From positions 186,001 to 250,000 of IMG/VR virus record IMGVR_UViG_3300005613_000002: DNA of 64,000 nucleotides, one strand, 5' to 3'. Of the stretch, positions 14,000 to 18,654 are shown piece after piece. Origin of the DNA: a virus. Made by a program: the position numbers and the translations under genes. A model generated the notes under the pieces. The model did not search any database. It saw only the letters and a program-made list of their open reading frames with translations, and had not been told where the DNA came from. Every line of letters starts with the position of its first letter. The stretch's first letter is position 1.

Positions 14000-14030
14000 G
14001 TAACATAATTGAGCAATGTACGTATAATTA
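14000..14030 (+). promoter_or_regulatory. phage promoter, GAGCAATGTAC spacer class
   Basis: GTAACATAATT-GAGCAATGT-ACGTATAATT. The same spacer sequence returns at 14697 and, with one change, at 15149, so this is a second promoter subclass. Confidence 0.75.
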
Positions 14031-14051
14031 TTATAACAAAAAGAAAAAGTA

Positions 14052-14537
14052 ATGGGACAAGTAAAAGAAATGAAAAACGCTATTGAGTTTTATCTACTCA
14101 ACATTTATACCAACATTGGAATGGATAAACCATCAAACCATGATGATATCTTAGAATTCATAGCCAATGATGTAATAGAAACAGCAGACCCAATAAATTG
14201 GCATTCAGGTGATGTATCAATAGGATTTCGCAGATGGATTGAGAGCAATGTACAACCACAAGAAACAAAAATTCCAACAGGTCTTAAAGACAGTAATAAT
14301 AACATTATTTATGTTGGTGATAATGTACAACCTAATATCTGGTCACAAATAAATAGCGATCATGAAGATGAAGGTGAAATTCATATTGATGGTTATCTAA
14401 CTGATGACGATAATGAAGAAGGAACAGTAATCGCTAAAGTCAGAATGATTGATAATGAGGTTACATATTATGATGAACGTGCAAAGACTGATAAGTATGC
14501 ACAAGAAGTAATTACTGAATGTTTTAAAAGATTATAA
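14052..14537 (+). CDS. acidic hypothetical protein, 161 aa
   Basis: Not recognised. N-terminal helix (IEFYLLNIYTNIGMDKP), then an acidic middle with HEDEGEIHIDGYLTDDDNEEG and a beta/helix end. A segment PTGLKDSNNNIIYVGDNVQP looks like a beta turn of a YopX/SH3-type fold, a weak resemblance only. Driven by 14000-14030. Confidence 0.8.
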   Translation: MGQVKEMKNAIEFYLLNIYTNIGMDKPSNHDDILEFIANDVIETADPINWHSGDVSIGFRRWIESNVQPQETKIPTGLKDSNNNIIYVGDNVQPNIWSQINSDHEDEGEIHIDGYLTDDDNEEGTVIAKVRMIDNEVTYYDERAKTDKYAQEVITECFKRL

Positions 14538-14556
14538 TTTTAATTAAAAAATAATC

Positions 14557-14694
14557 ATGGGAGCAATTAATTTACGGGATGAATATATCAATAAGATATT
14601 ATCCAACGATGATAATGATAATGATGACAATGAAGGATTTTTAGAATCATTACCATTGAGTGAACTTAAAACATTAGCTGAAGATTGTTCATAA
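14557..14694 (+). CDS. small acidic protein, 45 aa
   Basis: A 45-residue frame beginning at 14557 with a central run of Asp and Asn (NDDNDNDDNE) and an ESLPLSELKTLAEDCS end. Starts after a TTTTAATTAAAAA spacer but no full promoter. The next promoter begins right after its stop. Confidence 0.65.
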   Translation: MGAINLRDEYINKILSNDDNDNDDNEGFLESLPLSELKTLAEDCS

Positions 14695-14696
14695 TT

Positions 14697-14730
14697 TTTG
14701 TAACATAATTGAGCAATGTACGTATAATAA
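14697..14730 (+). promoter_or_regulatory. promoter of the tRNA-like RNA locus
   Basis: TTTGTAACATAATTGAGCAATGT then ACGTATAATAAT. The predicted transcription start falls within a few bases of the 5' arm of the first tRNA-like fold at 14734. Confidence 0.75.
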
Positions 14731-14733
14731 TAT

Positions 14734-14862
14734 AACAGTGAATAGCATAATGGAGTACGATAAGCTAAGTACAGGATGCGCAGGACTTTAAGTTTTATTT
14801 TTAAATGCATGTGGAAATAAAATTGTCGCTGAGAAGTGGGGTTGAATTCCCCAACACTGTTA
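14734..14862 (+). ncRNA. tRNA-like RNA 1 with enlarged central region
   Basis: A perfect 7-bp acceptor-type stem joins AACAGTG (14734-14740) to CACTGTT (14855-14861). Directly before the 3' arm is a T-arm: TGGGG (14837-14841), loop TTGAATT, CCCCA (14849-14853). TAGC/GCTA could be a D-like stem. The whole is 129 nt, about 50 more than a tRNA, and the T-loop lacks the usual TTC. TTTTATTT/AAATAAAA forms an internal 8-bp stem. Not a normal tRNA; could be a tRNA mimic, an intron-bearing or degenerate tRNA. Confidence 0.5.
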
Positions 14863-14865
14863 AAC

Positions 14866-14924
14866 GGTATTGAGTGAAGTTGTTTTGGAATTCACACCAG
14901 TAGGTTCGAAACCTGCCGATACCA
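14866..14924 (+). ncRNA. tRNA-like RNA 2, apparently without D-arm
   Basis: GGTATTG (14866-14872) pairs with CGATACC (14917-14923). The T-arm is canonical: GTAGG, loop TTCGAAA, CCTGC (14900-14916). The middle forms GTGAA-TT/AA-TTCAC with one bulged G and a 7-nt loop GTTTTGG, so the anticodon position would read TTT (Lys). There is no room for a D-arm: 59 nt in total. CACCA follows but is not a clean encoded CCA. It may be an armless tRNA or a tRNA mimic. Confidence 0.5.
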
Positions 14925-14933
14925 CACCAAAAC

Positions 14934-15008
14934 CAACCGAAAGGATGCATTCTGTTTCGGCAAGGGTTATACTCTGGGGTTCTGCTTACCCTTTAAAGCA
15001 GGAGTATA
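14934..15008 (+). ncRNA. structured RNA with likely pseudoknot
   Basis: CCGAAA/TTTCGG forms one hairpin. Next, TATACTC pairs with GAGTATA enclosing CTGCTT/AAGCAG, while AAGGGT just upstream can pair with ACCCTT in the hairpin loop, which gives a pseudoknot. All three elements lie downstream of the tRNA-like folds and upstream of the terminal stem. No known RNA family is recognised. Confidence 0.45.
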
Positions 15009-15059
15009 AAGAAGTTGTGGGCATTATTAAGGGACACTCTTGATACGAAACAACTTCTT
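15009..15059 (+). terminator. long-loop terminal stem of the RNA locus
   Basis: AAGAAGTTGT pairs perfectly with ACAACTTCTT (10 bp) enclosing a 31-nt loop that can itself fold (AAGGG..CTCTT). The T tract is short, so it is either a terminator or a processing signal. The RNA locus at 39 kb ends in a similar stem. Confidence 0.55.
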
Positions 15060-15119
15060 TGAAATTAATTAAAAATATTTGTCTGTCACTATACTTTAAA
15101 TTGTCGTTTAGTTGTGTGA

Positions 15120-15150
15120 AATGCCGTATAGAAATGTACGGTATTTTTTT
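15120..15150 (+). terminator. intrinsic terminator fused to next promoter
   Basis: AATGCCGTA pairs with TACGGTATT around an 8-nt loop; T7 follows and runs into GTAACA of the next promoter. The bases 15060-15119 show no gene. Confidence 0.8.
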
Positions 15151-15180
15151 GTAACATTATTGAGCAATCTACGTATAATA
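15149..15180 (+). promoter_or_regulatory. phage promoter, GAGCAATC spacer class
   Basis: TTGTAACATTATTGAGCAATCT then ACGTATAATA; drives 15205-15989. Confidence 0.8.
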
Positions 15181-15204
15181 ATTATAACATTTAAAACATA
15201 CACA

Positions 15205-15462
15205 ATGAAATATCAAGATTTAAAAAACAGACATGACACATTAGAACAAGATATTCTTGCTGCTTTGAGACATGAAGTTAATTCCAGCAAGAAAATGTCT
15301 AAACATATTAATGATGTCGCTATTGAAGTTAATGTTTATGATTATCATGAACTTGCAATCATTCATGATGAACTTGCATTCATGGATGAAAACGGATATC
15401 AATATTCAGTTTATGCTGAATGTTCGCTTGAAGATTTAATTGACATTTTAAGTAAAATCTAA
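15205..15462 (+). CDS. hypothetical protein, 85 aa
   Basis: The start is the ATG at 15205 after the ACATACACA leader, 25 bases behind the promoter. A long helix (residues 5-35, KNRHDTLEQDILAALRHEVN) precedes a mixed acidic end (CSLEDLIDILSKI). Unknown function. The stop overlaps the next start (TAATG). Confidence 0.8.
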   Translation: MKYQDLKNRHDTLEQDILAALRHEVNSSKKMSKHINDVAIEVNVYDYHELAIIHDELAFMDENGYQYSVYAECSLEDLIDILSKI

Positions 15463-16329: not shown

Positions 16330-18654
16330 ATGGAAATTAATTTACTAGAATTAAGTACACAAGGTGTTGAAAGTACAACCACTGCAAGAAAAATGGGAAT
16401 GTCAAAGAATGCACAATCAATGGTATTCCAATTGTTTACAAAAAATGTATATTCTAATCCAATTGGTACAGTTGTACGTGAAATTACTTCCAATTGTTTT
16501 GATAGCCATGTTGAAGCCAAAGTTAAATCTCCTGTACTTATCAAGAAAACCTATGATGAACAAACTAAAACACATTATATATCATTTATTGATTTTGGTG
16601 TTGGTATGTCAGAAGAAAGGATTTATGAGATTTATGGTGTATATTTTGAAAGTACCAAACGTGTTGATAATACACAAATTGGTGGTTTTGGAATTGGTGG
16701 TAAAACTCCATTAGCATATAAACGTTCAACAGGTCAAGGTGATGGTGAATATGATAATAGCTTTTATATTATCACTAATTATAATGGTACTCGTTATTAC
16801 TATTGCATATATGAAGGTGCTGATGCTCCTGTAATTTCCCCTTTACATTCTGAACCAACAACAGAAAGAAACGGAACTGAAATTCGTATTCCAGTTTTAG
16901 AAAAAGATATGGATGACTTTGCTAAAGAAATGGTACGTCAACTTTATTATTTTGAAGATGTTATTTTTGAAGGTTTTGAAGATGCTTGGAGGCATGGTGA
17001 AACCTTATCAAATGAGTATCAAATATTCAGAGGTAAAACATTCTTATTTAGAGGTGACGATTATTTGAGCAATGTACATATATGTTTGGGTAGAGTTGCT
17101 TACCCAATTGATTATTCTGTTTTAGGTTTATCTTCTGGTGAATATAATTTACCAGTTGCAATTAGACTTGAAGTTGGAGATTTAAATGTTACAGTTTCAA
17201 GGGAAAGTATTGATTATAGTGAGTCTACAATCAAGATGTTAAAAAAGAAATTGGTTGAGGTGAAAACTGAAATTATTGGAATGATGGTGAAACAATATGA
17301 AAATATTGTTACCCTTGAAGATTATTTCAAAATGAAAACCGATTTTGGAAACTATACTTTTAGCAATGGGAAAAGTATTTCAGTTGGAAATGTTGTTAAA
17401 GAAAAAGATATTGATTTTACAAATTTCAATTTCAGTTTCATGAAAATGCCAACAGATAAACAATTGTTTAATTTGTTCTTCAATGTTAAATCTTATGGTA
17501 AAAAACCTAATAGAAGTCGTTATGGTAGTAGTAGTAATGAATTCGAAGGTGGTTATAAAGAATTACTTTCAAGTTCAAACCTTTATCATTTTAATAACGT
17601 TTTTAATCGTAAGGTTATTAAACAATCTTATTTAAAATCAGAACACATATTGTACCATATCATTAATCGTGAAAATTTGTCACAACCACATTTGCGTCAT
17701 AAGATTACTGAATTGTTCAATGTACATTTAGATTCACTTGTTGATGAAAATGGTGTTCCTGTTCAATTTGTTCAATCATTAATGGCAATGCAGGATGAAT
17801 ATTTTACCATTGTACAAGATCAAACTGTATGTTACGATACTTTGGAAGTTCCAGAAGATTTTATTGCAGAAAGAAAGAACCGTAATAAAATCACTGATGA
17901 TATGAGGAAATTAACATTTCCAATAAAATTCATGTGTGAATATTCTGGAAGTCCTACAAGAGTAAAACTAGATCATTTATTTAAATTTAATATGCCTATC
18001 TTTTATGGTACTACTGACGATGAATTTAAATTAGAAAAAGCTAGTAAAATATATAGACATTTGTTTAATGAGAAATTTTTAATAACTGGTTATTCTGAAT
18101 ATGGTTATAACAATAGTGTTGATAAATTTAATAGAGTAGGACATGATTCAACACAAAAAGCTGGAATTATGTTTATCAGAATAGCAAAAGGAAATGTTAA
18201 ATATATGAAGTTTTGCAAAAATGCAAATCATATTGATACTGTTTATGATAAACTATTCAAACGTAAAGAAAAAGTAGTTTTGAATTATTTTAAAACTTAT
18301 CAATTATTTAATAGTTATAATAATCTGGATGATTTATATAAAGATAAACATTTTGGATTAATTGATGAAAATTGGGGTGAAACAATTATTAAACTCAATA
18401 CTGATATTACTAAAATTAAGGATTCTTTATTGGTGAAAGATTTGGAATATATTGAATCATCATTAAGTCATTATTTTAATATTGATAGAAATAAAATTGA
18501 TAAGAAATACGATAAATTAATAAAAGCTATTGATGATCTGGTAATGTTGGAAGAAGTAAATAAAGATATTGTTGAATTTATTCGTATTCCACATAGTTTA
18601 GAATATGGAAATAAAAAACTATTTCCACTATTGAAAAAAGTAATGATATTATAA
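16330..18654 (+). CDS. rIIA: rIIA-like protein with GHKL ATPase domain, 774 aa
   Basis: The first 250 residues show the GHKL ATP-binding fold: VVREITSNCFDSHVE (N-box Glu/Asn, about residues 47-61), FIDFGVGMS (DxGxG), and GGFGIGGKTPLAY (Gly-rich lid). The order and length match T4 rIIA, and the next gene matches rIIB. In T4 the rII proteins prevent RexAB-mediated abortive infection and associate with the membrane. A comparable anti-defence or membrane role in this host is inference. The long C-terminal part is not recognised. Three promoters precede it. Confidence 0.88.
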   Translation: MEINLLELSTQGVESTTTARKMGMSKNAQSMVFQLFTKNVYSNPIGTVVREITSNCFDSHVEAKVKSPVLIKKTYDEQTKTHYISFIDFGVGMSEERIYEIYGVYFESTKRVDNTQIGGFGIGGKTPLAYKRSTGQGDGEYDNSFYIITNYNGTRYYYCIYEGADAPVISPLHSEPTTERNGTEIRIPVLEKDMDDFAKEMVRQLYYFEDVIFEGFEDAWRHGETLSNEYQIFRGKTFLFRGDDYLSNVHICLGRVAYPIDYSVLGLSSGEYNLPVAIRLEVGDLNVTVSRESIDYSESTIKMLKKKLVEVKTEIIGMMVKQYENIVTLEDYFKMKTDFGNYTFSNGKSISVGNVVKEKDIDFTNFNFSFMKMPTDKQLFNLFFNVKSYGKKPNRSRYGSSSNEFEGGYKELLSSSNLYHFNNVFNRKVIKQSYLKSEHILYHIINRENLSQPHLRHKITELFNVHLDSLVDENGVPVQFVQSLMAMQDEYFTIVQDQTVCYDTLEVPEDFIAERKNRNKITDDMRKLTFPIKFMCEYSGSPTRVKLDHLFKFNMPIFYGTTDDEFKLEKASKIYRHLFNEKFLITGYSEYGYNNSVDKFNRVGHDSTQKAGIMFIRIAKGNVKYMKFCKNANHIDTVYDKLFKRKEKVVLNYFKTYQLFNSYNNLDDLYKDKHFGLIDENWGETIIKLNTDITKIKDSLLVKDLEYIESSLSHYFNIDRNKIDKKYDKLIKAIDDLVMLEEVNKDIVEFIRIPHSLEYGNKKLFPLLKKVMIL

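Follow-up and report, generated by a model that had tools for sequence, protein, structure and literature searches.

The window analysed here is a stretch of 64,000 nucleotides (bases 186001-250000) within a 321,624-bp record of an uncultured phage whose terminase is T4-like. The rIIA gene occupies positions 16330-18654 of the window, and upstream of it lies a noncoding unit of about 0.4 kb that includes a 59-nt tRNA-like element. No forward open reading frame of at least 60 amino acids is found between 14537 and 15112. The unit opens with a promoter-like repeat of the TTGTAACATAATTGAGCAATGTACGTATAAT type (14699-14729, plus strand; sigma-70-like match at 14700-14728), of which 11 further partial copies occur in the genome; the repeat also precedes other genes of the region. 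A probable intrinsic terminator hairpin, GCCGTA..TACGGTATTTTTTT (about 15122-15150, plus strand), was recognized by eye from the sequence rather than called by the automatic scan, and probably closes the unit.

The 59-nt element (E2) may be directly preceded by a second, degenerate tRNA-like element (E1; 14734-14861, plus strand), which is proposed with low confidence. E1 has a 7-bp closing stem (AACAGTG/CACTGTT), a D-arm-like TAGC..GCTA, a long inserted hairpin and a T-arm-like GGGG-TTGAATT-CCCC at 14838-14852 (GGGGTTGAATTCCCC). No homologue of E1 was found in the relatives.

Elsewhere in the phage genome (G000), ARAGORN predicts 46 tRNAs and one tmRNA. The tmRNA, which is separate from the 59-nt element, lies at G000:132007-132367, and most of the tRNAs fall within G000:122564-159617. 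Several isoacceptors are present twice in this interval, as one normal-length and one longer copy (e.g., 73 and 86 nt for His, 73 and 87 nt for Asn, and 76 and 85 nt for Gln). The tRNA-like sequence at G000:148146-148268 (plus strand) has an isoleucine-type GAT loop and about 60 nt inserted between the anticodon stem and the T-arm, which fold into a long extra arm. Another, at about G000:43466-43612 (minus strand), is missed by default ARAGORN; it has a T-arm and a TGA-type anticodon loop (Ser), and its acceptor strand GGGGAGA lies about 100 nt upstream, as if the D-arm had a large insertion.

Structure of the 59-nt element and the adjoining core RNA

E2 (14866-14924, plus strand) is a tRNA-shaped RNA without a D-arm, as judged from its sequence, its fold, a motif scan and comparison with relatives. 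The acceptor strands GGTATTG (14866-14872) and CGATACC (14917-14923) form 7 of 7 pairs, one of them G-U. Only a single nucleotide, A14873, separates the acceptor from the second hairpin, and the element therefore has no D-arm. The second hairpin (GTGAA-g-TT-GTTTTGG-AA-TTCAC, 14874-14895) has 7 bp and a bulged G; as an anticodon-type hairpin it is weak, because its stem needs the bulge. It is joined by ACCA (14896-14899) to the T-arm GTAGG-TTCGAAA-CCTGC (14900-14916), which has a 5-bp stem. The discriminator is A14924, and the CCA does not directly follow it (A-CACCA). The predicted fold has a minimum free energy of -18.5 kcal/mol (z = -2.4), and the minimum-energy structure is also the centroid. 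The initial annotation had read a 7-bp acceptor stem, a T-arm with a TTCGAAA loop and a GTTTTGG hairpin into these 59 nt, with no D-arm; all of these are in place, and fold and scan agree that the element is D-armless, tRNA-like and phage-borne.

A strict acceptor/T-arm scan (G53-C61, TTCRANN, 5/5 T-stem, 7/7 acceptor, length 48-71) of the 321,624-bp genome yields four matches, namely E2 and three canonical tRNAs, and the same scan of twenty first-order Markov genomes of equal size yields none. The Rfam tRNA model aligns to E2 from end to end (14866-14924) with 15.5 bits, below the gathering score of 29, and ARAGORN calls no tRNA in the window.

E2 is not a stand-alone tRNA: it stands exactly 9 nt before a second structured RNA, referred to here as the core, which the initial annotation did not include. 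The junction from acceptor stem to core RNA (ACACCAAAA; 14924-14932, plus strand) has the same length in six phages. In the 3' direction from E2 follow AAAACCAACCG, a short variable part, CGGCAAGGG, a TTATACTC/GAGTATAA helix around a pseudoknot, and a long stem. The first core helix, P1 (14933-14966, plus strand), pairs CCAACCG (14933-14939) with CGGCAAGGG (14958-14966), has an A/CAA internal loop and encloses the variable domain; its pattern is CCAACCG/CGGCAAKGG. The pseudoknot domain (14967-15009, plus strand) consists of an 8-bp outer helix, TTATACTC (14967-14974) with GAGTATAA (15002-15009), around a compact H-type pseudoknot with the stems GGGT/ACCC and CTGCTT/AAGCAG. It is followed by the long 3' stem AGAAGTTGT..ACAACTTCTT (15010-15059, plus strand), in whose place the relatives, compared by eye, have a long stem of other sequence, often with a T run after it.

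The CCAACCG and CGGCAAKGG motifs occur together at only one place in this genome. At the gathering threshold no Rfam family, including GOLLD and ROOL, matches the window; for the core, none matches at E<=10 in 14000-15300 or at E<=0.5 in ten other loci. Two known families were considered and rejected: GOLLD/ROOL, whose Rfam models match neither the window nor the ten loci, and tmRNA, which has no match in the window (ARAGORN, Rfam RF00023) and reaches 31.3 bits in the best relative, against a cut-off of 47. The best explanation of the core, judging from its sequence, is a new family of structured phage noncoding RNA without an Rfam match.

Distribution and conservation among related phages

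A 327.7-kb relative (G001) has the same arrangement upstream of rIIA; its terminase is 78% and its rIIA 53% identical. A pattern search and a search with the rIIB core added L196, L320, L321, L322, L324 and L329; as queries, rIIA and full-length rIIB were mostly unsuccessful, and the 52-aa rIIB core worked. Of 48 records searched with a covariance model built on the pseudoknot domain (R1), ten have a match at E < 1e-4, each a single one. The model drew on six of these ten; the other four (G014, G051, G052 and G058) are new members. G051 and G052 look near-identical and are counted as one lineage. The relatives are all metagenomic records, many of them fragments. In every record in which rIIA was located (9/9: the window, G001, L320, L321, L322, L324, L329, G052 and G058), the core lies on the same strand as rIIA, 0.8 to about 12 kb upstream. 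L196 is a very different phage, with two weak protein matches in the roughly 32 kb compared and a somewhat differently built pseudoknot domain, and its membership is for these reasons probable rather than certain.

Searches beyond these records gave little. A 339.9-kb relative (G002) has neither a core match by R1 nor a CGGCAAKGG motif. Neither an exact-sequence search of IMG/VR with the element or the promoter nor blastn against cultured phages returned a homologue of the unit. The CCAACCG/CGGCAAKGG scan of IMG/VR gave chance matches only, apart from L196, among the first 80 of 108 stretches listed. In bacterial genomes the matches listed are likewise due to chance, and so, among them, a core in bacterial chromosomes is unsupported.

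The core structure is conserved by compensation. In the outer helix all cells are paired in seven members, with two-sided changes at 6 of the 8 pairs; none of 500 shuffles reaches the covariation score, and slid controls are 29-41% paired. In ten members, 234 of the 235 cells of P1, the outer helix and the two pseudoknot stems are paired, a figure that is descriptive, the structure having been hand-drawn on the same sequences; the real evidence for the pseudoknot is the variety of pair types in its columns. Because MAFFT misaligned the pseudoknot domain, the two alignments (A4 and A5) were put together manually out of N-padded pieces of equal length, with a 2-nt bulge of L320 omitted. The L329 row of the ten-member table has one extra G before the first pseudoknot stem, which leaves the paired positions unaffected.

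In six phages (the window, G001, L322, L324, L333 = G014, and L196), an acceptor stem and T-arm stand exactly 9 nt before CCAACCG, and the 9-nt junction starts with A in all six. The loss of acceptor or T-arm pairing that would have counted against the original proposal was looked for in these relatives and did not appear: all 72 acceptor and T-stem pair cells are paired, with two-sided changes at 10 of the 12 pairs, a score that none of 500 shuffles equals (slid controls, 39-56% paired). No two members have the same body between acceptor and T-arm. In L196 it is that of a canonical tRNA-Gln(TTG) (65.9 bits as tRNA) and in G001 that of a cloverleaf with a damaged anticodon and a 10-nt anticodon loop (54.8 bits); in the window, L322, L324 and L333 = G014 the bodies are D-armless or rebuilt and 27-96 nt long. 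A correctly placed CCA is encoded in two of the six units (G001 and L324).

This pattern bears on two readings of the element. A charged and decoding D-armless tRNA, with the anticodon UUU for lysine if GTTTTGG represents positions 32-38, would account for the 7-nt loop, the U33-like position and the textbook T-arm, and E2 does have the 7-bp acceptor stacked on a 5-bp T-stem and the TTCRANN loop of a functional tRNA. This is extremely improbable, given that the GTTTTGG loop is present in no other member, that two canonical tRNA-Lys(UUU) genes are present in the phage anyway, and that the tRNA model score is 15.5 bits; a functional tRNA was rejected on a score under the curated cut-off, the absence of an ARAGORN call and the lack of a conserved anticodon stem with a 7-nt loop. 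The idea of a D-armless tRNA in the mitochondrial sense is not supported: the anticodon hairpin differs from phage to phage; what is conserved is the acceptor and T-arm at 9 nt from the second RNA, and some relatives lack the tRNA-like altogether. A decaying pseudo-tRNA, left where a phage tRNA gene used to be, its remaining pairing functionless, is quite improbable. The 46 predicted tRNA genes and the series from a canonical tRNA to damaged forms look favourable to it; decay, however, would not spare all acceptor and T-stem pairs in six divergent phages through two-sided changes, nor the exact length of the junction, and a pure pseudogene was ranked low or rejected on these grounds.

The tRNA-like is not universal. 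L320 has its own (38.1 bits) about 215 nt before its core, and five records in four lineages (L321, L329, G051, G052 and G058) have no T-arm directly before the core; in L321, G052 and G058 the leader before P1 can, by eye, form a hairpin around GTTCT..AAGA. The downstream core is, in these sequences, the more widely conserved part.

Several other features were noted in the relatives. Upstream of rIIA, G001 has another long noncoding stretch (L152:1436-900, minus strand), with a tRNA-like that has an enlarged anticodon loop (GCGATGT..ATCGCTACA; 48.3 bits as tRNA) and structured-looking flanks. At their start, a short way past the promoter, several units (L321:about 5775, L322:about 5920, L333:about 1270 and L341:about 1320) have a GTTCTTTAA-like sequence, which we take to resemble the boxA antitermination site of rRNA leaders. 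The stretches L343:12417-15500 and L324:1-700 belong to a 364.7-kb phage record (G057) that encodes a protein of 482 aa in which a Cas12f1-like TNB domain is recognized (5.9e-18). The gene precedes a CRISPR array whose six 36-bp repeats (GTTGTAAACAACCACAAATTGAAAGGTACTTACAAC) are all identical, and the array stops just short of this phage's tRNA-like and core RNA; by its sequence the locus appears to be a type V-like system of compact size, carried by a jumbo phage.

A probable processing module and its relation to known systems

The unit combines a tRNA-like fold, a fixed 9-nt junction, covariation in both elements and synteny upstream of rIIA. Transcription and cleavage of the unit, as well as any function of the core RNA, are inferred. 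E2 is probably a tRNA-derived module 5' of a structured phage noncoding RNA, kept for RNase P and RNase Z after the decoding half was lost: only the half that these enzymes read is conserved, which argues for a maturation or 5'-end module. Most likely E2 borrows host tRNA-processing enzymes, or guards the front end of the core RNA, rather than carrying amino acids. A mimic that recruits host processing enzymes, which the initial annotation offered as its alternative, is the best-supported reading. The acceptor stem stacked on the T-arm would present the part of a pre-tRNA that RNase P and RNase Z measure. Host RNase P would cut at 14865/14866, freeing the upstream leader or E1, and RNase Z would cut after A14924, freeing a core RNA (P1, the nested H-type pseudoknot and the 3' stem) whose 5' end would be fixed 8 nt ahead of P1. 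Where the module is missing, a hairpin can form near the transcription start instead. A regulatory or protein-binding core RNA would fit the single copy and the place upstream of rIIA.

RNase P binds the stack of T-stem-loop and acceptor and measures from the elbow (PMC4919913), and it cleaves model substrates made of acceptor, T-stem and T-loop (PMC11143913). The unconstrained body, the paired acceptor and T-arm, the exact junction and the syntenic, covarying core all favour processing. On the other side, an element that has no D-loop cannot make the G19-C56 elbow pair, which RNase P uses, in the normal manner, CCA is well placed in just two of six units, and the tRNA-like of L320 is about 215 nt away. 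The module is not essential, since five records have the core without any tRNA-like.

The main rival to processing is a tRNA-like that stays uncut as a 5' structural domain, either a protective cap or a dock for a tRNA-binding host factor; its logic would resemble that of tmRNA. Both readings predict invariant spacing, and sequence therefore cannot separate them: a cleavage site and a fixed spatial register would account for the 9-nt junction equally well. Retention is a tentative possibility, to which the by-eye 5' hairpin of units without a tRNA-like and the 31 bits of the L324 element with the tmRNA model (below the cut-off of 47) lend some weight; the intact tRNA-Gln of L196, however, would be expected to be excised, and CCA is at the right place in G001 and L324. 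That the element is a permanent domain of a pseudoknotted regulatory RNA of a new class in phages, a non-tmRNA tRNA-mimic chimera engaging the host translation or tRNA-handling machinery during infection, is doubtful. Phage tRNAs are known to counter anticodon nucleases, and a decoy that draws a host defence enzyme away from tRNAs, or a sponge that takes up RNase P, would suit the tRNA shape and the position in a region of small genes. It is very improbable: the members share no anticodon loop, and a free decoy would not be expected to be tied so strictly, at one spacing, to an RNA downstream of it.

Comparable arrangements exist in several systems. D-armless metazoan mitochondrial tRNAs (e.g., PMC4013460) share with E2 a secondary structure without a D-arm, but they are charged and decoding, whereas E2 lacks a conserved anticodon and has a 1-nt 5' linker. 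In tmRNA (RF00023), too, a tRNA-like half without a D-stem is combined with pseudoknots; there the pseudoknot body is inserted in the tRNA-like, whereas here it lies downstream and no tag frame was identified. GOLLD and ROOL (PMC12286853) are likewise large, structured and phage-borne, have no known function and often lie close to tRNA islands; GOLLD env-38 lies downstream of a tRNA, and tRNAs can occupy the GOLLD linker (PMC12286853). This unit has no Rfam match to them and measures about 0.4 kb, against more than 800 nt for many GOLLD members. The phi80 M3 RNA and the phage-derived C4 antisense RNA are phage non-tRNA RNAs on which host RNase P acts (PMC11143913), as proposed here; the likeness is one of description, and nothing suggests homology.

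A close parallel in form is with mascRNA and menRNA, the tRNA-likes that serve the maturation of MALAT1 and MEN-beta; no amino acid is loaded onto mascRNA (PMC11693755). Like E2, these RNAs are about 60 nt long, keep acceptor and T-arm with a reduced D part and no working anticodon, and adjoin a long noncoding RNA, theirs having an end defined through RNase P and RNase Z. E2 shares the retained acceptor and T-arm, the lost decoding half and the fixed place beside a conserved noncoding RNA (6/6 adjoining units). The animal elements, however, lie 3' of the long noncoding RNA and set its 3' end, whereas the phage element lies 5' of the core and would set its 5' end, its cleavage being predicted. 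The core would represent a structured RNA family of giant phages outside Rfam, present once per genome wherever found. Its units grade naturally from one with an intact tRNA to those reduced to the acceptor/T-arm stack, which makes a testable case for tRNA-likes as maturation signals of noncoding RNAs, so far best known from MALAT1, and minimal natural substrates of the E2 type would help to define what RNase P and RNase Z need.
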